Source: a virus. Taken from it: a DNA stretch of 37,731 nucleotides. A program made the position numbers and the translations under genes. The notes under the pieces were generated by a model. It searched no databases. It saw nothing but the letters and a program-made list of their open reading frames with translations, and had not been told where the DNA came from. Every line of letters starts with the position of its first letter. Position 1 is the stretch's first letter. Of this stretch, positions 432-37,078 are shown piece after piece. The DNA is taken from positions 1 to 37,731 of the IMG/VR virus record IMGVR_UViG_3300046517_000759. The stretch is one strand, 5' to 3'.

Positions 432-472
432 ACTCTACAGGCACCCCACCTAGCTGTCAATAATTATTATTG
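432..472 (-). promoter_or_regulatory. Leftward promoter P1 with AT-rich operator
   Basis: On the minus strand: AATAATTATT core (468-459), -35 TTGACA (460-455), 17-bp spacer, -10 TAGAGT (437-432), then 6 nt and the ATG of the 57-aa gene. The stretch from the core's upstream side through GACAGCTA is nearly identical to promoter P7 at the other end of the window. It drives the outward-facing left terminal genes. The upstream part overlaps the last codons of the CHC2 gene, so this unit directly abuts the one before it. Confidence 0.85.
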
Positions 473-925
473 GCACCTCGGTCGATTTATTTCAGCCAGG
501 CACCTCGGCCCAATCGCCGCCACGACATCCGGCGGCATCTCCCACGTCTCCAGCCACGGGAGGTCGGCCACGTCCACCGACACGCGCTCGTCTCGGCAGC
601 GGTCGCACACCAGCTCGTAGGACTTCTTGGGCGCCGACCAGATGTCCACGGGTTCGAGGTCTAGCGCGCCCAGTCGCTCGACAGCTTGGCGGAAGGTCAG
701 GCGTTCTAGCGCGACCAGCGCATCGATGGCATCGCCCCGCACGCCGCAGTTGAAGCAGTGGTATCCCCACCCGTGCTTGCGGTGGTACGAGACGGCGAAC
801 GCGCCCACGTTTGCGCCCTCGTGAAACGGGCACGCGCCCCGATACCTACGCTCGCCCACCTTGCGCAGGCTGGCGAACAGGGTGGGCAGCGGGAACGCGT
901 GCCGAAGTTGGCGAAGGTCGGTCAC
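467..925 (-). CDS. CHC2-type zinc-finger (primase-like) protein without catalytic domain
   Basis: A 152-aa protein started by GTG at 925-923, which overlaps the TGA of the upstream gene (GTGA). Residues 28-60 match the zinc-binding domain of DnaG-type primases: C32-P-F-H35, an aromatic-rich hairpin (GWGYHCFNCG), then C57-x2-C60, followed by GDAIDALVALERLTFRQAV, the usual helix after this finger. In DnaG this finger helps recognise the priming site. A second CxxC (C107, C110) follows. There is no TOPRIM or other polymerase domain, and the protein ends about 90 residues after the finger. It may be a split primase, an origin-recognition factor or a regulator. The catalytic part could lie on the missing sequence past the ITR. 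Confidence 0.82.
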   Translation of the reverse strand: MTDLRQLRHAFPLPTLFASLRKVGERRYRGACPFHEGANVGAFAVSYHRKHGWGYHCFNCGVRGDAIDALVALERLTFRQAVERLGALDLEPVDIWSAPKKSYELVCDRCRDERVSVDVADLPWLETWEMPPDVVAAIGPRCLAEINRPRCQ

Positions 926-1347
926 TTTGCCGACGTGATTACGTGCTCTCCGGCGTCGTTGCAAGCCTGAGAGCAGTAATGCATGTAGCCGGGGTGGCCC
1001 GGTCGTTCCTCTCCGCAGTTGACACCGTGAGTTGCGCAATTTATGTCGTCGCACAGAGCCCATCCGGCTGGGCGTCCACAGTCGGCGGGCACCATCAGCC
1101 AGCCCCACCGTGGCGCGCACCTCCCGCAATTGTCGATGTGCGCGTTCGAGTGAGCGTGACCATCGCACGGGATCAGCTTGTAGCCGTCGCGGCAGTAGTC
1201 AAGGCGAGCGGTATTCGGGCGCAGCATGCTTTCATGTGCCATGACGCGATCCGCGCCCGCCAGCGTTAACCGGGATTCGATGATCTGCCCGTCGAGCAGT
1301 ACGTGCCAGCATTTTCGGTTCCCGGTCTTCTCGGTTGACTTGGTCAT
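922..1347 (-). CDS. Leaderless cysteine-rich 141-aa zinc protein
   Basis: Starts at ATG 1347-1345, exactly 6 nt after the -10 of P2. An upstream in-frame ATG at 1365 falls inside the promoter spacer and cannot be on the message. There are about 11 Cys. The C-terminal half has spaced pairs (DNCGRC, then LCDDINC) and finishes YCSQACNDAG, which resembles an FCS-type zinc module and recurs as YCTKPCRDAG in the 459-aa protein of the right arm. No catalytic motif is seen. It is first in a two-gene unit with the CHC2 protein, so it may act in replication or gene control. Confidence 0.8.
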   Translation of the reverse strand: MTKSTEKTGNRKCWHVLLDGQIIESRLTLAGADRVMAHESMLRPNTARLDYCRDGYKLIPCDGHAHSNAHIDNCGRCAPRWGWLMVPADCGRPAGWALCDDINCATHGVNCGEERPGHPGYMHYCSQACNDAGEHVITSAK

Positions 1348-1353
1348 AAGCAC

Positions 1354-1391
1354 ATCTTGAGGCATGCCGGCGTGACTGTCAATAATTATTT
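1354..1391 (-). promoter_or_regulatory. Leftward promoter P2 with AT-rich operator
   Basis: Minus strand: AATAATTATT (1390-1381), -35 TTGACA (1382-1377), 17-bp spacer, -10 CAAGAT (1359-1354), 6 nt, then ATG at 1347. The -10 is a weaker match to TATAAT than in the other promoters. No terminator hairpin is visible between the upstream gene (stop at 1401) and this promoter. Confidence 0.8.
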
Positions 1392-1400
1392 TTTACTCGG

Positions 1401-2012
1401 TCACGCGTCGGGAAGGAGGTCCCACTCGTCGACGGCCGAAATGTACGGAGGGCGCGCCGGCTTGCCGTGGGGGCAGGCATCCCCGAGGCGACAGGTGTGG
1501 CAGAGCGCGGATCCGGCGCCCTCGATCGGTGGCACGCCTCGGTAGTACACGATCCGTGGCATCCCGACATCGGGCACGATCCAGCGTGGCGTAGCGGCCT
1601 TCTGCATGGCTTCCTCGATTACCTTCTGCGCCGCCCGCACGGTCTCAGGAAGCAGCAACGGCACGTCGTGCGCCGGCCCGGGCGGATGATTGACCACCGC
1701 GTGCATGGCCCACTCTTCCTTGGGCAAGTTCGTGACGTTGAACCATGTTCCCTCGGGAATGGCGTTGCGGCTACGCGAGTGACCGCAGCGACCACGATCG
1801 CCGAATTCGCCGCACAGTACCCAGCATGAACCGGCTACTTCGCACCACCTCGGCAGCGGCTTACTACCGTCGGCCCATCCGATGAACGAAGCCTGCCCAG
1901 CGTCGATTGAAAAGGCACGCAGGCTGCCGATATCGCAGTCGCGCCCGATTTCAAACTCCCCGTGGCTATCCTTCCACCGCTGACCGTTGGCGACCTTACG
2001 CGGCTTGTCCAT
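1401..2012 (-). CDS. 203-aa cysteine-containing protein, unknown
   Basis: Single-gene unit behind P3. The ATG at 2012-2010 is preceded by GGAGG at 2024-2020. The N-terminal 80 residues contain WKDSHGEFEIGRD and scattered Cys (WCEVAGSCWVLCGEFGDRGRC). The C-terminal part has CHTCRLGDACPHGKP, a C-x2-C-x5-C arrangement followed by His that probably binds zinc. It resembles small zinc-containing phage early proteins, but I do not recognise the family. No transmembrane segment or catalytic signature is seen. Confidence 0.75.
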   Translation of the reverse strand: MDKPRKVANGQRWKDSHGEFEIGRDCDIGSLRAFSIDAGQASFIGWADGSKPLPRWCEVAGSCWVLCGEFGDRGRCGHSRSRNAIPEGTWFNVTNLPKEEWAMHAVVNHPPGPAHDVPLLLPETVRAAQKVIEEAMQKAATPRWIVPDVGMPRIVYYRGVPPIEGAGSALCHTCRLGDACPHGKPARPPYISAVDEWDLLPDA

Positions 2013-2031
2013 TGCTCGACCTCCGACAAGC

Positions 2032-2069
2032 AGTCTAGCTCACCCGCGAACAGCCGTCAATAATTATTT
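2032..2069 (-). promoter_or_regulatory. Leftward promoter P3 with AT-rich operator and short SD leader
   Basis: Minus strand: AATAATTATT (2068-2059), -35 TTGACG (2060-2055), 17-bp spacer, -10 TAGACT (2037-2032). The predicted start near 2025 gives a leader of about 13 nt that opens with GGAGG (2024-2020), 7 nt before the ATG. P4 shares this compact design. The core lies 4 bp downstream of the stop codon of the 24-aa peptide gene, so the late unit ends where this unit begins. Confidence 0.8.
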
Positions 2070-2071
2070 AG

Positions 2072-2146
2072 CTAGGGCATGATGCCGATGATTCCACCGG
2101 CCCAGTACCCAATGCGTGCGGCGATTCGAAGCGCGATCAACTTCAT
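2072..2146 (-). CDS. 24-aa hydrophobic peptide downstream of endolysin
   Basis: An ATG at 2146-2144 with a strong GGAGGG about 7 nt upstream opens a 24-codon ORF, MKLIALRIAARIGYWAGGII then GIMP, ending TAG at 2074-2072. The sequence is basic at the N-terminus and hydrophobic afterwards, like a short membrane-active peptide. It is the last gene of the long late unit, 11 nt after the endolysin stop. Position and composition suggest a role in lysis (mini-holin or holin partner), but this is inference from context only. Confidence 0.5.
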   Translation of the reverse strand: MKLIALRIAARIGYWAGGIIGIMP

Positions 2147-2157
2147 GGCGTGCCCTC

Positions 2158-2673
2158 CTATGCGTTGAACCCGGGCGGCGGTTGTGCGGCCCGGTCAAAG
2201 TCAAGGTAACCCAAAAGCTCGCCGCCGTGAATAGCTTCGGGCGAGTAGCCGGTGTGCCGCGCGACACAGTTGCCCGCCCGCCCACCGTGCTCGGCGAACG
2301 TGTTGCCTGAGATCTCCGTCACCAGCCCGTTCGCGTCCACGCTTTCGACGATGCCCACGTGCCCCTTACCGCCTGCGTGGTCGAGCACGTACACGTAGCC
2401 CGGCTGTGGGTTGCTGTCCCGGCAAATGGGCTCGGCCAGCGTCCAGACGCGTAGGCTCGACCCTGTGCGCGGGCATGGGTTCATCTGCCCGATGACCCCG
2501 GCCGCCTTGCTGAACCACGCGAACAGCGCGGCAGCGCACCACGGGTTGCCTGGCGCGAGACCCACCGCGCGCAGCATCTCGTCGACCTCGGGGCCGGTGT
2601 TCGAGCCGGTTTCATGTACGCCAAGGTACGTTTGCGCGAGAGTGAGAGCGGATAGCCGAAGACTTGGCGGCAT
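2158..2673 (-). CDS. CHAP-domain endolysin
   Basis: A 171-aa cell-wall hydrolase. CHAP-type cysteine peptidase/amidase features are visible: catalytic Cys in NPWCAA (C46), His in GKGHVGIVES (H105), and the acidic/Asn partner in TEISGNT (E120, N124). The opening LAQTYLGVHETGSNTGPEVD matches the front of phage and bacterial CHAP endolysins. No signal peptide or separate wall-binding domain is present, so export would need a holin. The ATG at 2673 is preceded by AAGGGG. Candidate membrane genes lie directly upstream (2732-3749) and a hydrophobic mini-ORF lies downstream. Confidence 0.9.
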   Translation of the reverse strand: MPPSLRLSALTLAQTYLGVHETGSNTGPEVDEMLRAVGLAPGNPWCAAALFAWFSKAAGVIGQMNPCPRTGSSLRVWTLAEPICRDSNPQPGYVYVLDHAGGKGHVGIVESVDANGLVTEISGNTFAEHGGRAGNCVARHTGYSPEAIHGGELLGYLDFDRAAQPPPGFNA

Positions 2674-2728
2674 TGCGTTATTCCCCTTGACTTGCTAGAC
2701 TGTTAGCAGACGCGTCAGCCAGCCAGAT

Positions 2729-2776
2729 CCCTTACCGCCGGTTCGCGCCGTCCAAAGCATCGGCCGGCGGTAAGGG
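2729..2776. promoter_or_regulatory. 13-bp perfect stem-loop ahead of the endolysin gene
   Basis: CCCTTACCGCCGG at 2729-2741 is the exact reverse complement of CCGGCGGTAAGGG at 2764-2776, with a 22-nt loop. It spans the last codons and stop of the upstream membrane-protein gene and ends about 55 nt before the endolysin start. No T-run follows on the transcribed strand, so it is not a standard intrinsic terminator. It could be an RNA stability or processing element, or a control of lysis timing. Confidence 0.6.
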
Positions 2777-2950
2777 GGAGGCACCACACACGTACTCGTG
2801 CAGCCGCTGGCGGGCCACTACGTCGACATACAGGCGAGCTGCCGCGCCGATGAGCGCCACGGCGAGCAGGCCGACCACGACCGACACGAAGGTGCGCACG
2901 CGGCGCCGCTTGCGCTTGATGCCCTCCACGTAGGCGGGCCAGCCGAGCAT
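2732..2950 (-). CDS. 72-aa single-span membrane protein, lysis region
   Basis: ATG at 2950-2948; the same frame is open further upstream but only as the shadow of other genes. The sequence has a basic stretch (GIKRKRRRVRT) followed by one strong membrane segment (FVSVVVGLLAVALIGAAARL, about residues 21-40) and a C-terminal tail with a Pro-containing end (ASPLPPADALDG). This topology would suit a spanin- or antiholin-like protein, but no lipobox is present and the family is not recognised. It sits between the holin candidate and the endolysin. Its 3' end forms part of the 13-bp stem-loop. Confidence 0.65.
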   Translation of the reverse strand: MLGWPAYVEGIKRKRRRVRTFVSVVVGLLAVALIGAAARLYVDVVARQRLHEYVCGASPLPPADALDGANRR

Positions 2951-2964
2951 GGGCGCGTCGGGTC

Positions 2965-3036
2965 TCACATCGCCCACGCGGCTAGGCCAGCGGCCAGGGA
3001 GACGAGGCCGCACAGCCAGACGAAGTGCGCGGTCAT
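2965..3036 (-). CDS. 23-aa membrane peptide, lysis region
   Basis: The ATG at 3036-3034 overlaps the TGA of the upstream holin-like gene as ATGA. The peptide (MTAHFVWLCGLVSLAAGLAA then WAM) is essentially one membrane span. Its coupled start and location between two membrane-protein genes make translation likely. A role as a small lysis-accessory peptide is possible but unproven. Confidence 0.55.
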   Translation of the reverse strand: MTAHFVWLCGLVSLAAGLAAWAM

Positions 3037-3251
3037 GGCTTGGCGGGGACCACGTCAGGCGCGGCCGGCGCATTGACCCCGTGGCCAGGCAGTACCTTGG
3101 CCGCGATGATTGCAGCGGTGCCGCCGTACAGCAGGACCTTGCCCGCGATAGCCACGACGACAGCCGGGAGGCCGAGAGGCGCAGCAGCGATGACACCAGC
3201 GGCCGCTACGACGCCGCCGATGACGGTCAGGACCTTATTCAACCAGCTCAT
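3033..3251 (-). CDS. Holin candidate, two membrane spans, 72 aa
   Basis: ATG at 3251-3249, preceded by AGGAGA and overlapping the stop of the upstream gene (ATGA). Hydrophobic segments lie at about residues 7-29 (VLTVIGGVVAAAGVIAAAPL) and 31-52 (VVVAIAGKVLLYGGTAAII), separated by a short turn, with a Pro/Ala-rich polar tail. Two spans in about 70 residues next to an endolysin without signal peptide is the pattern of class II holins, which open the inner membrane at a set time. The family itself is not recognised. Confidence 0.7.
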   Translation of the reverse strand: MSWLNKVLTVIGGVVAAAGVIAAAPLGLPAVVVAIAGKVLLYGGTAAIIAAKVLPGHGVNAPAAPDVVPAKP

Positions 3252-3529
3252 TTGGTCACGTCTCCTGTGTGGTGGTGAGGCTCGCCGGGGAAACAGAAAC
3301 TCCACATCCCGAGGGACAGCCGCCTGACGAAGCCTCGTAACTCGTCCCGGATAAGATCGCGCTCACGTTCGCTTCCAGCCGTTCGCATTCGGTCAATACA
3401 AGACTGGACAATCCTTTGCCCCACGCCGAATGAGAAAACGACTTCGGCGTATGACTGGATTTCGACGTCGAAGTCGCTTGTGACTGTTCGAGGTGGGCCA
3501 CCACCGCCGACGCGATCATGGTCGGACAC
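3248..3529 (-). CDS. 93-aa soluble protein, unknown, lysis region
   Basis: GTG at 3529-3527, with GGAGAG upstream, inside the 3' end of the preceding gene (14-bp overlap); its TGA overlaps the next ATG. The protein is polar and helical in the middle (IQSYAEVVFSFGVGQRIVQS, then DLIRDELRGFVRRLSLGMW). A competing frame from ATG 3519 (87 aa, Ser/Thr-rich, stop at 3256) couples less well downstream and looks less like a protein. Function unknown. Confidence 0.65.
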   Translation of the reverse strand: MSDHDRVGGGGPPRTVTSDFDVEIQSYAEVVFSFGVGQRIVQSCIDRMRTAGSERERDLIRDELRGFVRRLSLGMWSFCFPGEPHHHTGDVTK

Positions 3530-3749
3530 GCCCCGAGAACTCTCTCTCCACGTCTTGCCCGCGAAGGATGGCCTTAATGTCCCCCTCCGCTTCCCCCAGT
3601 CGAGCGAGCAAGTTCGCCACCGAACTGCGCAGCTCCGTCAGCGTCGCCGTCATCGTGGTCATCGCTTGGACGTTCCTTCCGTATGCGTAGATGGCCGACG
3701 CGGCCGACAGTAGTAGCGTCACGCCGACCGATATGAGGATCGAAACCAT
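3516..3749 (-). CDS. 77-aa membrane-anchored helical protein
   Basis: The ATG at 3749-3747 overlaps the TGA of the upstream LamG gene (TGATG). An N-terminal membrane segment (ILISVGVTLLLSAASAIYAY, residues 4-23) is followed by a helix with heptad-like spacing (LTELRSSVANLLARLGEAEG, then DIKAILRG). An N-terminal anchor plus a helical periplasmic part is the plan of i-spanins, though the protein is short; a holin-accessory role is also possible. Location just before the holin candidate supports a lysis role. Confidence 0.7.
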   Translation of the reverse strand: MVSILISVGVTLLLSAASAIYAYGRNVQAMTTMTATLTELRSSVANLLARLGEAEGDIKAILRGQDVEREFSGRVRP

Positions 3750-4528
3750 CAGGCCGCCGTCGGAGAGATGTAGCCATACCCATAGCGCGCGATCTTGACG
3801 CTGCCGGCGACAACTCCGGTCATGGCCGCGAACAGGTTCTCATCTGAAATGCCGGCCAGGTCGGTTAACGTTGCGGCCGACACGCCATCGATCCACAGCG
3901 TTACTGTCGTGCCGTCGAACGTGACCACGAATCGGTGAAACGCATCGTCGCACACGACGGTTGATACCGTCTTTTTTTCGGTGCCATTGAAGGAGTAGAG
4001 AATGTAATGGGTCGCGTCGTTCGTGCTAAACGTTGCAACACCGAGATCGTGAGCGCCGTTGATGGTCTCCAGCCCAATCATGTTGAAGTGACCAGCTGTC
4101 GACGTCGGAAGCAGCCCCTCTGCCGCGAACGCCCATGACGTGGTCTTTGCTGTTTGAAACAGACTGGCGACTGACAACCGAACGTTGGCGTTCGTGTCGG
4201 TGGCGAGCCCGCCGCCGGGGATCGCAGCATCAAGAACGCCCGTCGCCAGCGTGGCGGTTCCGATGGGAGAGTCGCCGAGTTTGATTTCTCGGAAGTTGGT
4301 CAGGTCCGGCGCCGCCGCCGCCATGATGTCTACGGCCTCGGTTAGCCACAGGTCATGATCGTAGGAAAACAGCTTGCCCGTTTGCGTGGGCGTCAGCCCT
4401 GCGCCCACGGCCTCGGGCGCGCTGCCGTCCACGCTGACGAGTAGCCCGTTCGGGTCACGAGACACGCGAACTGTGCCCTTGGGACCAATTGACTCGTTGC
4501 CGAATTCGAGATCGATGTGATTGGGCAT
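3749..4528 (-). CDS. LamG/concanavalin-like tail fibre protein with shared anchor domain
   Basis: 259 aa from ATG 4528-4526, preceded by GGGAG. Residues 1-41 (MPNHIDLEFGNESIGPKGTV and on) are 22/41 identical to the N-terminus of the beta-helix spike at 5642-7669, so both probably attach to the virion at the same kind of site. Residues of about 100-255 look like a LamG/concanavalin fold: DDAFHRFVVTFDGTTVTLWI-DG is the typical strand pair of carbohydrate-binding LamG domains. Likely a receptor-binding or auxiliary fibre that binds surface glycans. Confidence 0.8.
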   Translation of the reverse strand: MPNHIDLEFGNESIGPKGTVRVSRDPNGLLVSVDGSAPEAVGAGLTPTQTGKLFSYDHDLWLTEAVDIMAAAAPDLTNFREIKLGDSPIGTATLATGVLDAAIPGGGLATDTNANVRLSVASLFQTAKTTSWAFAAEGLLPTSTAGHFNMIGLETINGAHDLGVATFSTNDATHYILYSFNGTEKKTVSTVVCDDAFHRFVVTFDGTTVTLWIDGVSAATLTDLAGISDENLFAAMTGVVAGSVKIARYGYGYISPTAA

Positions 4529-4544
4529 GTCGCGAGGCTCCCTG

Positions 4545-5642
4545 TTACGCGGTTCGTTGCCAGAAGTAGACCACAAAATAGGGCGGCACGGAAGCGACCG
4601 CGTCGCCGGTGAACGTGTGCCCGTGCGTGCCCAGCGCGCTCCCCGTGAAGGCCGGCGCGCTGTTCGTGCCGGTGGCCGTGACGGCGTGCGTATGCGTTCC
4701 AAGCGCCGACCCGGCGAACGCGGGCGCGCTGTTCGTGCCGGCCGGCGTGACCGTATGGCTGTGGGTCGCCAGGGCCGAACCGGTGAATGCAGGCGCGGAA
4801 TTGGTGCCCGTTGCCGTGACCGAGTGCGTATGCGTGGCGAGCGCGCTGCCGGTGAAGGCCGGCGCGTTGTTCGTGCCGGCGGGGGTGAGAGTGTGTTGAT
4901 GCGTGGCGAGGGCCGAACCGGTGAATACGGGCGCGGCGACGCTTCCCAGCGGGGTCAGCGTGACGCCCACGCCCGTCGAGGTGTTGCCCGTGACCAACTT
5001 CGGGGATGCGGGCGTGCTCGATGACGTGCTCGCTGAGCCGGTGAACGTCGGTGCGTTGTTCGTCCCCGCTGGTGTCCCCGCGCTCACGAGGCTCGTGTTG
5101 ATGCTCGCCGTTCCTGTGAACACGGGCGCGGCCACGGTGCCGGCCGGGGTGCCGGCCGAGGTGGCGCCAGAGGTGGCCGACGAGCCGGTAAACACGGGCG
5201 CGTCAACGGTGCCTGCCGGCGTGCCCGCTGTGATCGCACTGGTCGCTATGCCGACCGTTCCCGTGAACGTCGGCGCGCCTACTGAGCCTGCCGGCGTGCC
5301 CGCGCTGACCGCGTCGGTGCTCGCGCTCGAACCCGTGAACGTCGGCGCCGCTACTGAACCCGCAGGCGTGCCCGCTGACGTGCTGGCGTTCGCCCCCGTG
5401 GCCGTCGTCGTCTTACTGCCGCCCGTCTTGAGGACAGGGTGATAGTCGGGGTCGGCCCCGTCGTAGCCGACAGGCATTTGACCCGTACCGATGGCCGTCC
5501 ACACGCCGAACCCGAGCAGCGTCGCCGGACTGGTCGCTACGGCACCAAGGAACAGGCACCCCACGGGCCAACAGGACGCTAGGACAGACACAGGAAGGTC
5601 GCCGGGCGTGTCCACCATCAGCGAGTATTGCGCGCCAGGCAT
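4545..5642 (-). CDS. Tail-collar fibre with tandem repeats and HxH needle
   Basis: 365 aa from ATG 5642-5640 (TAATG overlap with the spike stop). The N-terminal part ends in WTAIGTGQMPVGYDGADPDY, and the C-terminus is SVPPYFVVYFWQRTA; these two pieces are the usual halves of a phage tail-collar domain. Between them lie about ten units of 20-25 residues: five of the type SAGTPAGSVAAPTFTGS, then five ending in HxH (HQH, HTH, HSH, HTH, HGH). HxH pairs in the T4 gp37 tip bind iron along a needle, so this may be a metal-stabilised trimeric tip. Cys residues occur near the N-terminus. Confidence 0.85.
   Translation of the reverse strand: MPGAQYSLMVDTPGDLPVSVLASCWPVGCLFLGAVATSPATLLGFGVWTAIGTGQMPVGYDGADPDYHPVLKTGGSKTTTATGANASTSAGTPAGSVAAPTFTGSSASTDAVSAGTPAGSVGAPTFTGTVGIATSAITAGTPAGTVDAPVFTGSSATSGATSAGTPAGTVAAPVFTGTASINTSLVSAGTPAGTNNAPTFTGSASTSSSTPASPKLVTGNTSTGVGVTLTPLGSVAAPVFTGSALATHQHTLTPAGTNNAPAFTGSALATHTHSVTATGTNSAPAFTGSALATHSHTVTPAGTNSAPAFAGSALGTHTHAVTATGTNSAPAFTGSALGTHGHTFTGDAVASVPPYFVVYFWQRTA
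4595..5400. repeat. In-frame tandem repeats encoding fibre units
   Basis: About ten degenerate repeats of 65-75 bp lie in frame inside the tail-collar fibre gene. The side nearest 4.6-4.9 kb encodes TGTNSAPAFTGSALATHSH-type units; the side nearest 5.0-5.4 kb encodes AGTPAGSVAAPTFTG-type units. Such arrays can expand or contract by recombination and change fibre length. They are coding, with no unique spacers, so this is not a CRISPR array. Confidence 0.8.
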
Positions 5643-25575: not shown

Positions 25576-27153
25576 TCACTTTGGTGGCACCCACATTCGC
25601 GCGTAGGCCGGCAGCGTCGGCACCTTTGGCCCCTTGCCCCTAAGCACGTCGTCCAGCGTCTTGCGCTGCTCCTCGGCCAGCCGCTCGCGCATGGTCATCG
25701 GCTTGGCCGGCGGCTTCGGAGCGCCCATCTGCGTGTACGATGGCAGGTCGAGCGCGATGCTGGCCGCGTCGCTGACCGCTGGCACCTGCGCCGTCACGTC
25801 GAGTTCCCACTTACCCGCATCGCGCGTCTTGGGGTTCCACCGTGCGGTCGACAGGCAGTCGGCCAAGTAGCCCCCTTCGATGACCTTGGCCACTCCGAGG
25901 GCGAGCAAGTCGGACAGCCGTTGCACGCGCGCCTTGGCAGCGCCGGCCGTCTTGAACGCCGACGCGACGGTGATGCCGTGGGTCATGCGCAGCGCCTCGT
26001 TCACCGGCGGGCTAGACCCCTCGGCGTCGCGAATGAACTCCATCCCACCGCCCCGGTAGCGCGTTCGCAGTTCGGCACATACGGCCAGCCAGTCGCTGTC
26101 TAGCGGGTCGGCCCCCGGCTCGGTTACCGCCTCGGCGAGCTGTAGCAGCCGGTCCTTACGCCGGTGGTCCCACGTCCACGCGACGATGGCGAACCGGCCG
26201 TTACGCGCGGCCTGCTTGATGCCGACGATTGTGCGGTCGAAGCCATGAGGTAGATCAGCCAGTCGTAGAGTGAACGGTCCAAGTACACGTACTTCGGCGC
26301 GCGTCGGCGTGTACGTCTGCCGGCCGGCGTCAAAGCGGTAGGCCGTGGCACTGGACGCGAAGACGATTTCGCCACGGAACCGACGGCGCACTTCGGGGTC
26401 GGAGGGCGAGAAACCGTACTTCGCGCAGTAGTCTTTTTCGCGCTGCTCGTTGTTGAGTTGGAACGGGTTGTCGAACCGCGAGAAGTTGAACGGCGCCCAG
26501 GCCGTATTGGTTTTTGCTTCTTCCCACGTTCGCCACATGTAGCCAGAAGGAGTGTCCGGGATCGATCCACTGAGAACGAGACGGCCGGGCGTCGGCTTGT
26601 CGTATGTAGTTTCATCGAGCATGGGGGCCAAGACGTCCTCGACGGTGATTTGCGCGATGCCTGGCTCACTTTGCATTTCATCGAGTATCGCGATGCCTCC
26701 CGCAAGCTGGTCGCCTAGCAAGTGTGTCACCCGGCGCATGTCGTCCGACCCCGTGAAGTAGACGCGAGAACCGTTGCTGAACTCGGAAAATTGCTCGCTG
26801 TCCGACGACAGGTGTGGGATATCGAACTTCTTGAGCAGCTTGCGCCACTTCCTAAAAATCGGGGCCGCTGCGTCCTTCGTCAAGCCGAGGTAGAGACAGG
26901 ACACGTCGTCGGTCCTGATGGCCGTGAGCAGTAGCAGGCCGCAACACACTTCGGACTTCCCCGCGCGCCGGCTGCACATGAAAATCATGTTCTGTGCCGG
27001 GCAGGTCATGATTTCGATTTGCTTGGCGTGACGCTCGCCGTGCTTCCCCGTGGCGATGGTATCCGGGGTCACGCGCGCGACCGCCTCTGACCACCGTCGG
27101 TCGAGTTCTGCCCGCGCCGACTCGGCGGTTAGCTTTGGCTTTGCGGCTGGCAT
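25576..27153 (-). CDS. terL: Large terminase subunit
   Basis: 525 aa. ATPase motifs are clear: Walker A CSRRAGKSE (about 60-68) and Walker B IAILDE (154-159), with QFSEFSNGSRVYFTGSDDMR between them. The C-terminal nuclease half contains GFDRTIVGIKQAARNGRFAI (motif I region), FIRDAEGSSPPVNEALRM and VTAQVPAVSDAASIALD (later motifs). TerL packages DNA into the head and cuts it. The ATG at 27153 lies 25 bp inside the HNH gene, which is unusual and may mean the endonuclease gene arrived later. No small terminase could be identified with confidence. Confidence 0.93.
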   Translation of the reverse strand: MPAAKPKLTAESARAELDRRWSEAVARVTPDTIATGKHGERHAKQIEIMTCPAQNMIFMCSRRAGKSEVCCGLLLLTAIRTDDVSCLYLGLTKDAAAPIFRKWRKLLKKFDIPHLSSDSEQFSEFSNGSRVYFTGSDDMRRVTHLLGDQLAGGIAILDEMQSEPGIAQITVEDVLAPMLDETTYDKPTPGRLVLSGSIPDTPSGYMWRTWEEAKTNTAWAPFNFSRFDNPFQLNNEQREKDYCAKYGFSPSDPEVRRRFRGEIVFASSATAYRFDAGRQTYTPTRAEVRVLGPFTLRLADLPHGFDRTIVGIKQAARNGRFAIVAWTWDHRRKDRLLQLAEAVTEPGADPLDSDWLAVCAELRTRYRGGGMEFIRDAEGSSPPVNEALRMTHGITVASAFKTAGAAKARVQRLSDLLALGVAKVIEGGYLADCLSTARWNPKTRDAGKWELDVTAQVPAVSDAASIALDLPSYTQMGAPKPPAKPMTMRERLAEEQRKTLDDVLRGKGPKVPTLPAYARMWVPPK

Positions 27154-27632
27154 GGGAAGTTCAGGAACGCGAACGGGCCGAACGTAGACCGCGCTGCTTG
27201 ATCGTACGCTATCGCTGCCTCCTCTTTCGTGGCGAAATAGCCGAGCGTTTTATGCGTGGCTCCGACCTTTATTCTCGCCCTCCACTTCGAGTCACGGCCG
27301 AACCACGACACACCTTTGTAGCCCGACGAATTGTCGCGGCGATGGGCCTGATTCGCCATGTTCTGAGTGCCTGTCGCCGCTCGCAGGTTCTCCCGCCTGC
27401 AATTCAAGCCGTCACGGTCTGCATGGTCGATCTGCCCTGTGATCCCAATCCTGGCTCCGATGACCCGATGAAGCTTGACGAACTTCTGGACTCCGTTGTC
27501 GTCCCTGCCGACTGACCGAATCGCATAGTCCGTGCGTTTCCCGCGCGACGCCGACCATTTGAACTCGGCTAGGTCGGCATCGTCCTCGTCGACGACTGCG
27601 CTTAGGCCGCGCGACAAAGTGATGACTGGCAT
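27129..27632 (-). CDS. HNH homing endonuclease with AP2 DNA-binding domain
   Basis: 167 aa from ATG 27632-27630; AGGAGG 6 nt upstream favours it over the overlapping ATG three bases earlier. HNH core: KLHRVIGARIGITGQIDHAD, then LNCRRENLRAATGTQNMAN. The C-terminal AP2-like domain (SGYKGVSWFGRDSKWRARIK, LGYFATKEEAAIAYDQAA) binds DNA. Free-standing HNH-AP2 genes are mobile elements in phages and often sit beside terminase genes. Here the stop lies within terL's first codons. Confidence 0.88.
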   Translation of the reverse strand: MPVITLSRGLSAVVDEDDADLAEFKWSASRGKRTDYAIRSVGRDDNGVQKFVKLHRVIGARIGITGQIDHADRDGLNCRRENLRAATGTQNMANQAHRRDNSSGYKGVSWFGRDSKWRARIKVGATHKTLGYFATKEEAAIAYDQAARSTFGPFAFLNFPCQPQSQS

Positions 27633-28024
27633 CATGATCCTCCTGTGGGCAGGCACATCCATGGCCTATGTTGAATCCGCCACCGCCTCGTGCCCCTGTT
27701 CGGGATGAACGGCGACGTCATTTGCTTGCGCTTATCGATGCCCGCGCACTTGAGCATGTAGTCCCCGACGCCCTGCCCGCGAAACATGTCGCGCACGTAC
27801 ATCCAGGCGAGTTCTTTCGCGCTTCGGTGGACCGTCCACCCGACGATCAAAAGGTCCGACTCGCACACCGTCGCCGTCCACCCGTTAGCGAGCAGGTTCA
27901 TCAGCAGGCTCACGACTTGGCCGTTCTCTAGTCCCTCGACGTGCGTGGACGCCAGCCGGACAGAGCGCAGGAACGTCTCGGCGATGAATCCCATGTCGTC
28001 GGGCGTGGCGGGCCGGCAGATCAC
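27632..28024 (-). CDS. GNAT-family acetyltransferase
   Basis: 130 aa from GTG 28024-28022 (GTGA overlap). MICRPATPDDMGFIAETFLR is a standard GNAT opening, and ELAWMYVRDMFRGQGVGDYM carries the acetyl-CoA loop (R-G-Q-G-V-G). Substrate unknown; it could modify a host or phage protein. The C-terminal end is basic and irregular. It precedes the HNH and terminase genes. Confidence 0.8.
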   Translation of the reverse strand: MICRPATPDDMGFIAETFLRSVRLASTHVEGLENGQVVSLLMNLLANGWTATVCESDLLIVGWTVHRSAKELAWMYVRDMFRGQGVGDYMLKCAGIDKRKQMTSPFIPNRGTRRWRIQHRPWMCLPTGGS

Positions 28025-31133: not shown

Positions 31134-31147
31134 GTTGATCCTTTCTA

Positions 31148-31563: not shown

Positions 31564-31793
31564 CACTTGACCTCCGTCCACGACGCGCTCACATGCCCAC
31601 CCGGCGAACTGAATTCGTTCGGGCTGGCCGCAAAGGTCAATTTCGCGTCGGCCGGCAGGCGCAACAGGCGGATGAGGTCGGCGGCGTAGAAGGTGGCCGT
31701 CTTGTTCCGCGTCACTGTCGATTCAGTGACGATGGCCACACCTTTGATTCTGCGACGTGGCTTGACCGTCGTTCCGTTGGTGTCCTCGCTCAT
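31563..31793 (-). CDS. 76-aa protein, unknown, early operon
   Basis: The ATG at 31793 overlaps the exonuclease TGA (ATGA). Sequence: a basic start (TVKPRRRIKG), then TATFYAADLIRLLRLPADAK and a beta-like tail (GGHVSASWTEVK). No Cys and no known motif. Confidence 0.7.
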   Translation of the reverse strand: MSEDTNGTTVKPRRRIKGVAIVTESTVTRNKTATFYAADLIRLLRLPADAKLTFAASPNEFSSPGGHVSASWTEVK

Positions 31794-32536: not shown

Positions 32537-32640
32537 TTGCGCCTCCATGACTGAACGATTTCAACGGTGAACGCGCCGACGATGACGATAAAAACGCAGG
32601 TAATAAACCAGTGTAGATAGATCAAGTGTGCAAGCGCCAT
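32533..32640 (-). CDS. Hidden 35-aa membrane peptide
   Basis: ATG at 32640-32638 directly after the upstream TAG; TGA overlaps the exonuclease ATG. MALAHLIYLHWFITCVFIVI then VGAFTVEIVQSWRRK is one long membrane span with a basic tail. Coupled on both sides between two DNA-processing genes. A host-takeover or exclusion role is possible; not testable from sequence. Confidence 0.6.
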   Translation of the reverse strand: MALAHLIYLHWFITCVFIVIVGAFTVEIVQSWRRK

Positions 32641-33039
32641 CTAGCCACCACCATGCAACGTCGCGTCGGGCGGCGTGAGAGCGAATCCCTCGGGCGACTC
32701 AAGGGCCGGCTTGCTGGCCGGCAGCTTGTTGCGCACGCGGATACAGTCCACCATGCCCTCCTTCGTCTTGGTGGTCGTCGGGTAGATGGTGATTTTGTGG
32801 CCCACCCACTTGGCCGCCTCGAACGTGCCGAGTAGCGCGCCGATTGTGTTGATGTTCGTTATGTTTACTCCCAGCGGCTTAGTCTTGCCCTTGAAGTGGA
32901 TCATGGGCATCTTCTTGGCCCCGCCGGCCGACGTGACCTCGCCTTGGACGACGCGCTCAATTTCCACCGTGCAATCCTTCCCTTGGAGGTCGAACGCGTA
33001 CAGAAACTTGCGGTCAAGCATGGCGCGCACGTCACTCAT
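32641..33039 (-). CDS. Putative single-strand DNA-binding/annealing-like protein
   Basis: 132 aa from ATG 33039-33037; ATGs at 33045 and 33063 are less likely. The sequence SDVRAMLDRKFLYAFDLQGK, TVEIERVVQGEVTSAG, PMIHFKGKTKPLGVNITNIN, WVGHKITIYPTT resembles a conserved phage protein usually found beside RecE/RecT-type genes and sometimes called SSB-like. OB-fold character is suggested by the strand pattern but is not proven. Confidence 0.65.
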   Translation of the reverse strand: MSDVRAMLDRKFLYAFDLQGKDCTVEIERVVQGEVTSAGGAKKMPMIHFKGKTKPLGVNITNINTIGALLGTFEAAKWVGHKITIYPTTTKTKEGMVDCIRVRNKLPASKPALESPEGFALTPPDATLHGGG

Positions 33040-33142
33040 CGTCATCCCCAAAGTCGTCGCCATCGTCCTGTTCGCGCTCGCCTTCGATCAGCTCGTCGGT
33101 GTAGTCGGCCTCGACGTCGGCCGGGTCGGGAAAGTTATTCAT
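33032..33142 (-). CDS. Hidden 36-aa highly acidic protein
   Basis: ATG at 33142-33140 overlaps the upstream gene; the TGA at 33034-33032 lies inside the next gene. MNNFPDPADVEADYTDELIE then GEREQDDGDDFGDDDE: 17 of 36 residues are Asp or Glu, with one Arg. Such acid density is seen in DNA mimics and in SSB C-terminal tails; note that it precedes the SSB-like gene. Function unknown. Confidence 0.6.
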   Translation of the reverse strand: MNNFPDPADVEADYTDELIEGEREQDDGDDFGDDDE

Positions 33143-33389
33143 CGGAGCGCGCCTTGATGTCGTACGCGAAGACGAAGTATTGAACGATTTGGCGGGCGGC
33201 ATCCTCGGGCGTACGTGGCGTCTCAAGGATGCGCGTGACGCCCGCGACCAGTTCTCCCAGCGCATCAGCCGGCTTAGGCGCGTCTAGGTCATCGAGCGCG
33301 AAACCGGCAGGCATGCAGGCGAGGCACTGCGACGTGCCCGTGAGTCGCCAGTGGAGCGGGTGGGCGCACGAAGCGGCGAGCGAGATCAT
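33135..33389 (-). CDS. 84-aa protein with cysteines, early operon
   Basis: The ATG at 33389 overlaps the upstream TGA (ATGA). N-terminal MISLAASCAHPLHWRLTGTS then QCLACMPAGF: three Cys and one His in the order C-x2-H … C-x2-C, possibly a zinc finger. The C-terminal part is helical (RQIVQYFVFAYDIKARSDE). Function unknown. Confidence 0.68.
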   Translation of the reverse strand: MISLAASCAHPLHWRLTGTSQCLACMPAGFALDDLDAPKPADALGELVAGVTRILETPRTPEDAARQIVQYFVFAYDIKARSDE

Positions 33390-33487
33390 TGCGCACCTCC
33401 AAACACCAGCTCGCGCATCGTCTCGTAAGGCGTCGCGACCGTCTGCTCGTCCTCGTCGTCGCGCTCGTCGTCGGCTTGTTTGTTCAT
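33386..33487 (-). CDS. Hidden 33-aa acidic protein
   Basis: ATG at 33487-33485 overlaps the TGA of the 66-aa gene (ATGA). MNKQADDERDDEDEQTVATP then YETMRELVFGGAQ is acidic in its first half. A second acidic mini-protein in this operon. It is coupled on both sides, so translation is likely; function unknown. Confidence 0.58.
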   Translation of the reverse strand: MNKQADDERDDEDEQTVATPYETMRELVFGGAQ

Positions 33488-33684
33488 GGCCGCACCGAGT
33501 AGATGCGCGGGCCGCGCGAGAAATCGCACGCGCCGTCGTGCCCATCGTCCAGCCGGCATTTCTTGTCGACGTACCACAGCGACGGCATGCCACCTCGGCC
33601 GGACATGCGCGTCTCGCGAGTGATTCGGTGACAACGGGGCGCCTTCTTCGGGGATGACACTTCGATGACCTGCGCGTTTTCCAT
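33484..33684 (-). CDS. 66-aa first gene of the main leftward operon
   Basis: The ATG at 33684 follows P4's 14-nt leader with GGAGG. MENAQVIEVSSPKKAPRCHR, then RGGMPSLWYVDKKCRLDDGH and DGACDFSRGP: three Cys and two His, in an order that may bind zinc. Being first after a repressible promoter it should be an immediate-early protein. Family unknown. Confidence 0.72.
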   Translation of the reverse strand: MENAQVIEVSSPKKAPRCHRITRETRMSGRGGMPSLWYVDKKCRLDDGHDGACDFSRGPRIYSVRP

Positions 33685-33704
33685 GTTCGTGACCTCCGAA
33701 AGAG

Positions 33705-33742
33705 ACTATCGCACGGGCGCTAGCGGGTGTCAATAATTATTT
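33705..33742 (-). promoter_or_regulatory. Leftward promoter P4, start of the ~31.6-kb main operon
   Basis: Minus strand: AATAATTATT (33741-33732), -35 TTGACA (33733-33728), 17-bp spacer, -10 GATAGT (33710-33705), predicted start near 33698, then GGAGG (33697-33693) and ATG at 33684. No further copy of the operator occurs from here to P3 at 2.07 kb, so most of the genome may hang on this one promoter or on another promoter type. Confidence 0.85.
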
Positions 33743-33877
33743 TACGTACCATCGAGGCTTCATGGCGGCGGCGTATTTGGCGTCGATTTCGGCCATGGTC
33801 ACCTGATACTTGATCGCCCACATGCAGAACACGGCCAGCGACCAGATGTCGCATGCGATGCCCTCGCCCGGCCTCAC
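33737..33877 (-). CDS. Hidden 46-aa protein at the end of the repressor operon
   Basis: GTG at 33877-33875 overlaps the VRR-NUC TGA (GTGA). VRPGEGIACDIWSLAVFCMW then AIKYQVTMAEIDAKYAAAMK and PRWYVK; the first part is moderately hydrophobic. The TAA at 33739-33737 is inside the AT-rich core of P4, so the operon end and the next promoter share bases. Unknown function. Confidence 0.6.
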   Translation of the reverse strand: MRPGEGIACDIWSLAVFCMWAIKYQVTMAEIDAKYAAAMKPRWYVK

Positions 33878-34149
33878 GGTACCAGCCCAACGACGATGAG
33901 TGCCTCGGCTACCCCTGTGACCACGTGCGGCGTCTGCCCCTTCCATTCGGCCCACCACTTCACCTGACTGGGCGTGAATCGGTTGCGCCCATCCTTGTTC
34001 TTGACCTCGATCAAGTAGGTCACTCCGGCCCGACCGACGAGCAAATCCGGGGTGCCCTTGGAGTACATGCCGGCATCGATGTGTGTTACGCTGCAACCGA
34101 CCTCGCGCAGGGCTGCCACGATGGCTTTGGTGGGAATGTCCGACTTCAA
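33874..34149 (-). CDS. VRR-NUC family nuclease
   Basis: 91 aa from TTG 34149-34147; GGGAGG 8 nt upstream and TTGA overlap support it. KGTPDLLVGRAGVTYLIEVK has D35, E48, K50, and FTPSQVKWWAEW has Q62, the usual VRR-NUC order. Phage members are stand-alone nucleases thought to cut branched DNA such as Holliday junctions. It is unusual that it lies in the repressor operon, where it would be made when the phage is quiet. Confidence 0.83.
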   Translation of the reverse strand: MKSDIPTKAIVAALREVGCSVTHIDAGMYSKGTPDLLVGRAGVTYLIEVKNKDGRNRFTPSQVKWWAEWKGQTPHVVTGVAEALIVVGLVP

Positions 34150-34391
34150 TTCACACCTCCCATCAGCCCGTCGGCTAGTGCCAACGCCTTCGTGAGTCGC
34201 GAGATAGCCAGCGCCATCTCCCACTGGCCAAGTGGCTTGCGTGCCAGGCTTTCGACGAATCGCGCGTGCTCTAGCGCCTTCTCGACGACACACACGCGGT
34301 CAGGCTCGCGCGCGGCTATCTGTTCGCGTAGGCGTTCGCAGTCGCGCACGAGTTCGACGGCCGTCGCGTGGACCTTCTCGTCGGCGTTCAC
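34146..34391 (-). CDS. 81-aa helical protein, repressor operon
   Basis: GTG at 34391-34389 overlaps the repressor TGA (GTGA). Helical (ATAVELVRDCERLREQIAAR; LEHARFVESLARKPLGQWEM; ISRLTKALALADGLMGG). Two Cys, no known motif. It may be a repressor partner or antirepressor by position only. Confidence 0.68.
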   Translation of the reverse strand: MNADEKVHATAVELVRDCERLREQIAAREPDRVCVVEKALEHARFVESLARKPLGQWEMALAISRLTKALALADGLMGGVN

Positions 34392-34600
34392 GAGCAGTCA
34401 CCGATCAACTCGGCCACCGTGCAGCCCAGCGCGCGGGCCAGCTTGCCGATTACCGTGAGGCTGGCCGAGCTGGTGCGCGATTCGATGTTGTTCACCGTCG
34501 TCCCTGTGACCTTCGCTCGGCGGGCTAGTTCGCGCTGCGACAGGCCGGCTTCTTCGCGTCTCAACTTGAGTTCTACCGACAGGGAATGCGCTGGCGTCAT
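34388..34600 (-). CDS. Leaderless XRE-family repressor, 70 aa
   Basis: The ATG at 34600 lies exactly 6 nt after the -10 of P5, as in leaderless lambda cI from PRM. The whole protein is an XRE helix-turn-helix domain: ELKLRREEAGLSQRELARRA, KVTGTTVNNIESRTSSASLT, VIGKLARALGCTVAELIGD. There is no C-terminal dimerisation or autocleavage domain, so it is unlikely to respond to RecA-type induction. It faces the rightward genes across a symmetric operator and probably controls all AATAATTATTGAC promoters. Confidence 0.85.
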   Translation of the reverse strand: MTPAHSLSVELKLRREEAGLSQRELARRAKVTGTTVNNIESRTSSASLTVIGKLARALGCTVAELIGDCS

Positions 34601-34606
34601 GTTGGC

Positions 34607-34635
34607 AGAATGGCACGTCCATAAGGGGGTGTCAA
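34607..34635 (-). promoter_or_regulatory. Leftward promoter P5 for the repressor
   Basis: Minus strand: -35 TTGACA (34635-34630), 17-bp spacer, -10 CATTCT (34612-34607), then 6 nt and ATG. On this strand the AT core is followed by one extra T before TTGACA, so operator and -35 are shifted by 1 bp compared with the six other promoters. The -10 is weak. This offset may tune autorepression or activation. Confidence 0.75.
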
Positions 34636-34648
34636 ATAATTATTGACA
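34630..34648. promoter_or_regulatory. Symmetric operator between divergent promoters
   Basis: TGTCAAATAATTATTGACA: arms TGTCAA and TTGACA are perfect inverted repeats around 7 bp, and the inner AATAATTATT is itself a palindrome. Each arm is a -35 element of one divergent promoter. This is the only site with two full arms; the other five have one arm plus the palindromic core. Likely binding site of the XRE protein. Confidence 0.75.
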
Positions 34649-34671
34649 GGCTAACGGGCGAGCCTTAGTAT
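34635..34671 (+). promoter_or_regulatory. Rightward promoter P6
   Basis: Plus strand: AATAATTATT (34635-34644), -35 TTGACA (34643-34648), 17-bp spacer, -10 TAGTAT (34666-34671), 6 nt, then ATG at 34678. Drives the right-arm operon beginning with a 10-codon ORF. Best -10 of the set. Confidence 0.85.
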
Positions 34672-34677
34672 GGGCAC

Positions 34678-34710
34678 ATGAGCACGATTTCTCTCCCAGT
34701 GCGCAGATGA
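34678..34710 (+). CDS. Leaderless 10-codon leader ORF
   Basis: ATG at 34678 sits 6 nt after the P6 -10. It reads MSTISLPVRR and stops TGA at 34708-34710, overlapping the ATG of the 459-aa gene (ATGA). The large gene has no SD, so ribosomes that load at the 5'-terminal ATG and reinitiate at the overlap would be its main source of translation. The peptide itself may have no role. Confidence 0.55.
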   Translation: MSTISLPVRR

Positions 34711-36086
34711 GCGACGCCATCTCAAAAGGGCCGTGGACCGCTTGCGGCGCGAAGGACGGCAAGTGCTCGTGTGGCTTGATCTGGAGCAAGGCCGAAGACC
34801 GCGTGGTGGCCATGGTGCAGCGAGAGGACGAATCGGGGTCGTGCTCGGATGAGACCTTCCACGCGAACTGCGCCGCGATTGCTGCGCTGCCTGAAACGCT
34901 CGCCGACCTCACCGCTACCCGTACTCGGGTGGCTGAGCTGGAGGCGCGCGAAGCCGGCCACCAACGAACGGTCGACGCCCTGTATCGCGACCTCGCCGCT
35001 CTCCGAGAGAGGCTGGGGGAGGCGCGGGAGGCGCTAGAGACAATCGCCGAGTACGACACCGACTTTGCGAAGGGCCCGGCCGACAACGTCGCGGCATTGC
35101 AGACCGTGGCCGAGCGCGCCCTCGCCCGCCTCGACGCCTCCCCCCAGGCTGACCCCATGGGGGATATGTGGCCGCCGCCGTATCACATGCAACTTTGTAC
35201 GGGCGACGATTGTACCGAATGCGCGCGGCTGACGGCTACCCCCGTACAGGCTGCTCCCCCGTGCCCCTGCGTCGCCGGTCCCGCGTGCAGGCCGACGTGT
35301 ACATGCGCCAACCCTGTGCAGTCTGGCGGGTGTCTTCGGTGCTCGAACTACGGCGCGGCTACCCCCGTACAGGGAGCGCCGCCGTGTCGTTGCGGGTCGG
35401 GGCTGCATCCGCGTCGATGTGAGCTGCACCCGAACAGGTACGCCGAGCACTGTGCCGAAATCAGCGCCGAGAGCGTCCAGGCAGCGCCAGCCGATGGGCC
35501 GACGCCGCGTGATTGCATCCATGGGCGACGGACATGCGAGCCGTGCGCGTGGACGGCTGGATACCCCAGGGAGCTTTTGCAGGGTGGCGCGGCAGTTTGG
35601 AAGCTGCGCGACTTCGACGGCGAACAATGGAGGGACGTACCAGCCGATGGGCCGACGTGCGCGGCGTGGTGCGGAACGATGTACGACCAGCACACAACGT
35701 CCGATTGCGCGGTCAAGGCGTGGGGCAACGGTAGTCGTTGCTACTGCACCAAGCCTTGTCGCGACGCTGGCCGTCCCCTGCGCCCCGTTCTAAAGAGCGG
35801 AACGGGGCCGAGCACGCTGGCTGAGGAATTGGAAAGCGCGGCCTTCGTTCTTGACGAGGCAATCGGCACAGCCGCTTACGGGCACAAAGGGGCAGCTATC
35901 GTCGGGTCTGTTCTCGCCGCCCGTCTCCGTGCCAGGGCAGCGCGGGCGAGGGAACTGATGGGCCTCCATGAGTTCTGCTCGGACAGTCGGCGAGAAAACC
36001 GGCCGTGTCATGCCTGCTGCGCGTGCGTACTGCGCGATGTGGGCGGTCCCGACCTCGGCCCTACTCGTAGAGGAGAGCCTGCATGA
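34707..36086 (+). CDS. 459-aa cysteine-rich modular early protein
   Basis: The first 150 residues resemble the Ead/Ea22-like domain of phage early proteins (KGPWTACGAKDGKCSCGL, then helices ADLTATRTRVAELEAREAGH). The rest is cysteine-rich: about 33 Cys overall, with repeated pieces ATPVQAAPPCPC / ATPVQGAPPCRC and PADGPT twice. It includes YCTKPCRDAG, echoing the 141-aa left-arm protein, and ends with CHACCACVLRD. Probably many zinc sites. Exact DNA repeats (35232-35248 = 35357-35373; 35487-35504 = 35640-35657) show growth by duplication. Function unknown. Confidence 0.8.
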   Translation: MSDAISKGPWTACGAKDGKCSCGLIWSKAEDRVVAMVQREDESGSCSDETFHANCAAIAALPETLADLTATRTRVAELEAREAGHQRTVDALYRDLAALRERLGEAREALETIAEYDTDFAKGPADNVAALQTVAERALARLDASPQADPMGDMWPPPYHMQLCTGDDCTECARLTATPVQAAPPCPCVAGPACRPTCTCANPVQSGGCLRCSNYGAATPVQGAPPCRCGSGLHPRRCELHPNRYAEHCAEISAESVQAAPADGPTPRDCIHGRRTCEPCAWTAGYPRELLQGGAAVWKLRDFDGEQWRDVPADGPTCAAWCGTMYDQHTTSDCAVKAWGNGSRCYCTKPCRDAGRPLRPVLKSGTGPSTLAEELESAAFVLDEAIGTAAYGHKGAAIVGSVLAARLRARAARARELMGLHEFCSDSRRENRPCHACCACVLRDVGGPDLGPTRRGEPA

Positions 36087-36187
36087 TTCTGTTCCATACC
36101 CTGCCAACACCTACCCGCAGAGGGGCGAGCGAGTGGGCCGTGCGCCGTGGGCTTGTCTACCGCGAACGCCGAGAGGAGCCGTCATGA
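36083..36187 (+). CDS. Hidden 34-aa basic protein
   Basis: ATG at 36083 overlaps the stop of the 459-aa gene (ATGA); TGA at 36185-36187 overlaps the next ATG. MILFHTLPTPTRRGASEWAV then RRGLVYRERREEPS is basic, with nine Arg. Its 3' end includes the purine-rich GAGAGGAG that can serve as SD for the next gene, so it may partly be a translation bridge. Confidence 0.5.
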   Translation: MILFHTLPTPTRRGASEWAVRRGLVYRERREEPS

Positions 36188-36408
36188 CTGCGAGGGAGCG
36201 GGCCGAGGGCGTCGTGCGTGCCATGGGTTACACGCGGCCGAGTGCAATTGAGCTGCATCGCCGTAAGGTCGAAGCCGCCATCCTCGCCGCCCAGAGCGAC
36301 GAGAGGGAACGGTGCGCGCACGAACTTGACTGTTGGCGCGGCGGCGGCCCGCTAGAGGTCATCGCCGCTGCCCTGCGCGCTCTCCCCCCAGAGGACGTGA
36401 AGCCATGA
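36184..36408 (+). CDS. 74-aa helical protein, unknown
   Basis: ATG at 36184 with GAGAGGAG upstream. MTARERAEGVVRAMGYTRPS, then ELHRRKVEAAILAAQSDERE and RCAHELDCWRGG. This helix pattern, A-I-x-A-A-x-x-x-E-R-x-R-C, is common in small phage proteins encoded near Ead-like genes. Function unknown. Confidence 0.7.
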   Translation: MTARERAEGVVRAMGYTRPSAIELHRRKVEAAILAAQSDERERCAHELDCWRGGGPLEVIAAALRALPPEDVKP

Positions 36409-36644
36409 GCTACCGTCGCGTGTTGGTGTTGGGGGACCTTCGCAGCCCCGTCTATGAGGTCCCAGGGAACCCGGAACCGTCGGTCGACATCGCGCTCATG
36501 CCCGAGCGCCGCCTATCCTTCGAGCCGCCCGACCCGCACAGTATCGTGGCCTATCGTCTTCGGTTCGAGTACGTCGACACCGAGCCAAGCCCCATCAAAG
36601 GCGACTCCACCCGCACCTACGTCTACCGCTGTGACCGGCTATGA
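36405..36644 (+). CDS. 79-aa beta-rich protein, unknown
   Basis: ATG at 36405 overlaps the previous TGA (ATGA). MSYRRVLVLGDLRSPVYEVP, then SIVAYRLRFEYVDTEPSPIK and RTYVYRCDRL: strand-rich, one Cys. No motif recognised. Confidence 0.68.
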   Translation: MSYRRVLVLGDLRSPVYEVPGNPEPSVDIALMPERRLSFEPPDPHSIVAYRLRFEYVDTEPSPIKGDSTRTYVYRCDRL

Positions 36645-37024
36645 GCGCGACCCCTCACCATCACAGGTGGGTGAAGGTCGCCGTCCCGGGCTCCCGGTGC
36701 TGCCACGCCTGCAACACGTTCACGCGCAGCTCGTGGAAAGCTTCAGCCTGGTGCGACGGATGCATAACCGGCGTCTGTGAGTATCACGACCCTCGCCGTC
36801 CCCCGACCCCAGCAGAGCGGGAGGAGCGCCGGGTGCTGCTGAGGGCGGCACGATGGCTGCGCAAGCAACCGAGCCCGCCGAGCCTCAAGGGGATGAAGGA
36901 GTCGCCGAGCGCGTGGTGGGACCTTCATCCCGGCGACGAGAGAGACGGGTGGTACTGCCTTGCCGGCAGCGACTACGCCGAGAGCGCCGCCTACTCCTGG
37001 ACCGATGGCCCGCCGCGTCGCTAA
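36641..37024 (+). CDS. 127-aa zinc-binding protein
   Basis: ATG at 36641 overlaps the previous TGA. N-terminal HHHRWVKVAVPGSRCCHACN, then WCDGCITGVCEYHD, gives CCxxC and CxxC-x4-C with nearby His: a likely two-site zinc domain. The rest is basic helix (REERRVLLRAARWLRKQPS) and a Trp/Tyr-rich end. Last gene before P7. Confidence 0.72.
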   Translation: MSATPHHHRWVKVAVPGSRCCHACNTFTRSSWKASAWCDGCITGVCEYHDPRRPPTPAEREERRVLLRAARWLRKQPSPPSLKGMKESPSAWWDLHPGDERDGWYCLAGSDYAESAAYSWTDGPPRR

Positions 37025-37038
37025 TCGACCCCGGTGCC

Positions 37039-37078
37039 AATAATAATTATTGACAGCTAACCCGGTCGTGGGTAGAGT
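37039..37078 (+). promoter_or_regulatory. Rightward promoter P7 with AT-rich operator
   Basis: Plus strand: AATAATTATT (37042-37051), -35 TTGACA (37050-37055), 17-bp spacer, -10 TAGAGT (37073-37078), 6 nt, ATG 37085. The block 37033-37059 is identical to the P1 block on the other strand (477-451), so the two ends have twin outward-facing promoters. Confidence 0.85.

Follow-up and report, generated by a model that had tools for sequence, protein, structure and literature searches.

Genome-wide regulatory switches are already known in phages, and the system described here most likely adds a clean case to them without introducing a new principle. The closest known systems, by our comparison, are the repressor of mycobacteriophage BPs and the C1 protein of phage P1. 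BPs is temperate with integration-dependent immunity; its gp33 repressor binds at five regulatory regions distributed over the whole genome and controls four promoters, and the operator CGACATATGTCG, which consists of two half-sites with variable spacing, lies between the -35 and -10 elements at PR (PMC4557955). For C1 of P1, 22 dispersed operators with the asymmetric, A+T-rich 17-bp consensus ATTGCTCTAATAAATTT repress the lytic genes and the c1 operon (PMC8546580). The stoperators of L5 and the Cluster A phages are multiple 13-bp sites for one repressor that are situated mostly outside promoters and stop elongation (PMC9283540, PMC6550527). In Cluster O phages (Corndog), SigA promoters have been predicted, a divergent pair among them, that place +1 on the initial base of the start codon, and a repeated 17-bp palindrome is mostly unassociated with promoters (PMC4351075). 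The SAS of Cluster K phages is a repeated 13-bp word that precedes the start codon by 3-7 bp and occupies the ribosome-binding position (PMC3203893).

The window analysed here is the whole of a virus record of 37,731 bases with 64% GC. The initial annotation had reported six copies of an A+T-rich 13-mer in this GC-rich genome. Six exact copies of AATAATTATTGAC are indeed present, at 456-468, 1378-1390, 2056-2068 and 33729-33741 on the minus strand and at 34635-34647 and 37042-37054 on the plus strand, the positions first given for them being only approximate. The chance expectation for both strands ranges from 4e-5 (order 0) to 2.6e-3 (order-4 Markov). When up to three mismatches were allowed, 15 matches were found in the window, whereas shuffled sequences had 1.04 on average and at most 5. 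Each of the 15 traces back to one of the six sites, read directly or in an overlapping, shifted or reverse register; additional copies, degenerate ones with three mismatches included, are found nowhere else in the window. A seventh promoter had also been said to share the 13-mer, on the opposite strand of the 34.6-kb site (34632-34644). Its -35 word carries one extra T (AATAATTATTTGACA), hence this copy is inexact. With a weight matrix comprising the box, the -35 and the -10 element, and applied to both strands, the six sites scored 36.6-40.7 bits and the seventh 25.0 bits. The next scores, 18.0 to 11.5, belong to the back strands of the box sites, and the first unrelated match scored 8.1. Between 0.4 and 37.1 kb the genome therefore has one word repeated at a number of promoters, as six exact copies and one variant.

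Taking TTGAC(A/G) as the -35 element, we found a NANNNT hexamer at a spacing of 17 bp in all six sites and at spacings of 16 and 18 bp in none of the six. NANNNT has a frequency of 3.2% in the window, and six out of six at a single fixed spacing corresponds to a p of about 1e-9. The -35 element is TTGACA in five sites and TTGACG in one. The exact 17-bp spacing and the -10 hexamers that had been proposed were confirmed at all six sites, as was CATTCT on the opposite strand at 34.6 kb. All seven promoters thus show the SigA/sigma70-type arrangement (-35 and NANNNT 16-18 bp apart) as TTGAC(A/G)-17-NANNNT, and an independent sigma70 scan recovered five of them. The box shares with the stoperators of L5 and Cluster A that there are multiple short 13-bp sites. 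Nevertheless the analogy with stoperators drawn in the initial annotation does not hold, since every copy is inside a promoter, and an L5-type system, which is defined by sites in transcribed DNA away from promoters, was rejected.

Promoters 1 to 4 are on the minus strand. Promoter 1 (432-468; TTGACA-17-TAGAGT) precedes the ATG at 425 of a 57-aa ORF (425-252) directed toward the left end, and its box is surrounded by the near-perfect dyad TGCCAATAATAATTATTGACA. Promoter 2 (1354-1390; TTGACA-17-CAAGAT) is followed by the ATG at 1347 of a 141-aa ORF (1347-922) and then by a CHC2 zinc-ribbon (DnaG-like) ORF ending at 467. Promoter 3 (2032-2068; TTGACG-17-TAGACT) lies in front of a 203-aa ORF (2012-1401). 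Promoter 4 (33705-33741; TTGACA-17-GATAGT) lies in front of an ORF at 33684-33484 that heads the long leftward block with the exonuclease, helicase, TerL, capsid and tail genes. On the plus strand, promoter 5 (34635-34671; TTGACA-17-TAGTAT) is followed by the ATG at 34678 of a 10-residue ORF (MSTISLPVRR, 34678-34710), the stop codon of which overlaps the ATG (34707) of a 459-aa ORF; it is possible that the two are translationally coupled. Divergent from it on the minus strand is promoter 5r (34607-34644; AATAATTATTTGACA-17-CATTCT), whose ATG at 34600 is codon 1 of an HTH_3 gene. Promoter 6 (37042-37078, plus strand; TTGACA-17-TAGAGT) precedes the ATG at 37085 of a 79-aa ORF directed toward the right end. 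The TAA stop codons of upstream ORFs are located inside or at the edge of the box at 467-469 and 33737-33739; the operator is therefore packed against gene ends. It had been proposed that every transcription unit begins with a box. This applies to the units marked by these promoters, but the leftward gene block of about 31 kb below 33.7 kb contains no internal copy, and box-free promoters may exist.

Five of the seven promoters (at 456 and 1378, minus strand; 34635, plus strand; 34632, minus strand; 37042, plus strand) have an ATG exactly 6 nt past the -10 hexamer, that is, with the start codon at the expected +1, and look leaderless, a feature that the initial annotation had overlooked. The remaining two (2056 and 33729, minus strand) have a short leader with a GGAGG Shine-Dalgarno sequence, TCGGAGGTC before the ATG. 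In M. smegmatis, ANNNT is found between -13 and -6, and leaderless mRNA has been described in mycobacteria (PMC6448022). A +1 at the ATG in the five sites would be consistent with this placement, and the 6-nt distance from -10 to ATG appears to fit the leaderless mRNA of mycobacteria and of Cluster O phages. Leaderless SigA-type promoters including a divergent pair are common to Cluster O and the present phage; unlike in Cluster O, the repeated word here forms part of each promoter. A repeated 13-bp word tied to gene starts recalls the SAS of Cluster K. This candidate was rejected, as the box is at the -35 position and, in the leaderless sites, about 30 bp away from the ATG.

The six copies were compared position by position. 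Identity is 100% for the eight bases preceding the -35, 94% for the -35 elements, 58% for the -10 elements, 35% for the spacers and 30-33% for the flanks, where random DNA of the same composition would give 27%. The outward-facing end promoters, at 456 (minus strand) and 37042 (plus strand), share a longer similar segment (391-487 versus 37023-37119; inverted, 97 nt, 73%), and therefore only about five copies are independent. These two end regions look as if copied. For five independent copies with a free choice between A and T at the eight positions, identity has by our own arithmetic a p of about 0.5^32. Since the eight bases are invariant while spacers and flanks are near random, this comparison suggests that the box is under selection as a protein-binding word, beyond A+T richness or recent copying: richness alone fixes no choice of A versus T, and duplication would have preserved the spacers. 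That the copies are recently duplicated promoter cassettes, identical owing to short time and not to function, would agree with the longer segment common to the two end promoters. At the other sites, however, the box is identical and the spacers and flanks differ nearly as much as unrelated DNA does. This contrast largely refutes recent duplication, which we rejected as very improbable.

UP elements are A+T blocks upstream of the -35 that stimulate transcription, and they are degenerate. We considered whether the box is part of the promoter only, an UP-element-like A+T block next to a consensus -35 that serves the host polymerase with no dedicated regulator. Such a role would suit the composition of the box, which consists of A+T only within a GC-rich genome, its place immediately before the -35, where the proximal UP subsite is located, and the occurrence of every copy within a promoter. 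Yet its eight bases never vary while the -10 elements do, and we regard a mere UP-element function as unlikely.

A protein-binding word is also suggested by the symmetry of the box. All copies have a perfectly palindromic 10-bp core, AATAATTATT, and the palindrome reaches TGCCAATAAT-A-ATTATTGACA at both end promoters. At the divergent 34.6-kb site the core is flanked by TGTCAA and TTGACA, as TGTCAA-N7-TTGACA. Beyond the 10-bp core the left arm is asymmetric in three of the six sites, and the spacing of the arms is not constant between sites (7 versus 9 bp). The palindromic form is as would be expected for a dimeric HTH protein, the natural candidate, and the box may resemble operators of the 434 type (CAAT-N4-ATTG). 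The sole HTH_3 gene found (XRE/Cro-C1 type; 34388-34600, minus strand; Pfam E 3e-15, above the cut-off) codes for a 70-aa protein that is Cro-sized and has no second domain. Its best relatives of solved structure are small HTH regulators and HipB antitoxins, with weak E-values. The gene starts at the leaderless promoter 5r, so that a phage-encoded DNA-binding regulator is found at a promoter with the same word, apart from the one extra T. It is followed by three ORFs (33737-34391, minus strand) with successive overlaps of about 4 nt, one of which has weak similarity to a Holliday-junction resolvase or endonuclease; all four genes probably form an operon transcribed from promoter 5r. The 70-aa HTH_3 protein is the most likely candidate for a regulator that would bind the box and control its own promoter. 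Alternatively, the box could be bound by another protein, either from the host or a phage factor that escaped recognition, and this protein might be an activator. Many non-structural ORFs have no family match, and the box abuts the -35, a position that activators also use. But the -35 elements are already near consensus, so an activator is not called for, and it is the HTH_3 gene that starts at one of the promoters; binding by another protein is in our view rather unlikely.

Two IMG/VR relatives with capsids 71-72% identical were found, one with the capsid as seed and the other by capsid alignment: G001 (27 kb, 56-57% GC) and G002 (40 kb, 52-55% GC). The initial annotation had proposed looking for the motif upstream of gene starts in related genomes; in both of these the box is missing beyond chance-level matches with two or three mismatches. 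Both also lack the 70-aa protein and any above-cut-off HTH_3 match, with the window serving as positive control. The joint absence, which would be expected for an operator and a regulator gained and lost as a pair, is only suggestive, because there are just two relatives, G001 measures 27 kb and both are possibly incomplete. The two genomes contain candidate -35/-10/ATG arrangements without any such box, which also speaks against the box being an UP-like promoter part. A dispersed 13-mer in at least three copies was not found in G002, and in G001 only low-complexity CTTCC-type repeats reached that number. A two-copy element of G001, TC(A/G)TAC(A/T)AATGCCTTGACAGG, was considered and rejected, with a plausible -10 at one copy only. 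G001 further has arrays of 9-bp GCTTCC-type repeats after ATG starts (L244, 12022-12264, and L245, 14010-14153); one follows a leaderless-type promoter, TTGACA-17-TAAGGT-6-ATG (11999, plus strand), and the other reaches the record end. Collection scans for the promoter pattern gave, among the matches listed, unrelated, mostly A+T-richer phages, nearly all with a single match. With a GC-rich spacer required, one 172-kb contig with one match was obtained, a result that gives no sign of a similar system.

Taken together, we consider it somewhat probable that seven SigA/sigma70-type promoters are fused to the operator of one phage regulator, probably the 70-aa HTH_3 protein. The genome-wide operator fused to promoters that had been proposed is thus retained as the best reading of the invariant box, the fixed spacing, the divergent regulator promoter and the joint absence in two relatives, without the likeness to stoperators. 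Under the fused-operator reading, the seven promoters, five of which would yield leaderless mRNA, would be read by the host's RNA polymerase carrying the principal sigma factor (SigA/sigma70-type). The common operator, AATAATTATTGAC(A), would overlap the -35 element of each promoter. A single phage regulator bound to it would cover the -35 and block initiation, turning the promoters down together. This regulator, most likely the HTH_3 protein made from the divergent 34.6-kb promoter, would also limit its own synthesis. What we infer from the DNA sequence is the type of host, the use of its polymerase, where transcription starts, which protein binds, and that the promoters are repressed and not activated. 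A more far-reaching version, which we think distinctly unlikely, is that all host-type promoters, the regulator's included, carry one identical -35-fused operator, and that initiation on the entire genome, early as well as late, is shut off by one Cro-sized protein. If this were true, early and late promoter classes would not be separate, and units would differ mainly in having leaderless or Shine-Dalgarno starts.

Like in BPs, one word occurs at dispersed regions, there is a divergent pair resembling that of repressor and early promoter, and the core is palindromic. Unlike in BPs, the box has one constant position, overlapping the -35, in every one of the seven promoters, and no integrase was recognised among the scanned proteins of this phage; a temperate lifestyle therefore has no positive sign, and a role in lysogeny is not indicated. 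With P1 C1 the system has in common the many genome-dispersed copies of an A+T-rich word, whereas the P1 word differs and the P1 sites are more numerous. P1 C1 is of a different protein class from the HTH_3 candidate, and we know of no link between its operators and leaderless starts. The particular features here are the fixed fusion of operator to -35 and the mostly leaderless starts. The regulon is unusually clean and readable from sequence, in a phage whose terminase and portal-like protein have no match among sequenced isolates. Names can be put to the operator, the likely regulator and each of the seven controlled units, and short oligonucleotides and one small protein would suffice to test the pairing. 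Repeated operators that coincide with leaderless promoters may help to locate start codons and small genes of phages that have not been cultured.

At the DNA level, positions 1-24000 of the window gave no match among 50,697 phage records, and neither did the terminase and the 651-aa portal-like protein when compared by tblastn with phage records. Viral-contig scans seeded with the terminase, the helicase and the portal-like protein returned no relatives, and genome contigs scanned for capsid relatives yielded none. The record ends carry an exact 127-bp inverted repeat (1-127 and 37605-37731). Genuine terminal inverted repeats are unusual for tailed phages. Because 127 is a common assembler k-mer, the repeat probably represents the border of a more extensive inverted repeat or stems from the assembly graph. 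An HNH endonuclease with an AP2 domain (27129-27662), likely a homing endonuclease, adjoins the terminase. Degenerate tandem repeats of 60-69 nt (4609-5384) are situated inside the minus-strand ORF 5642-4545, which has a Gp10_C domain and is a repetitive tail or fibre protein.
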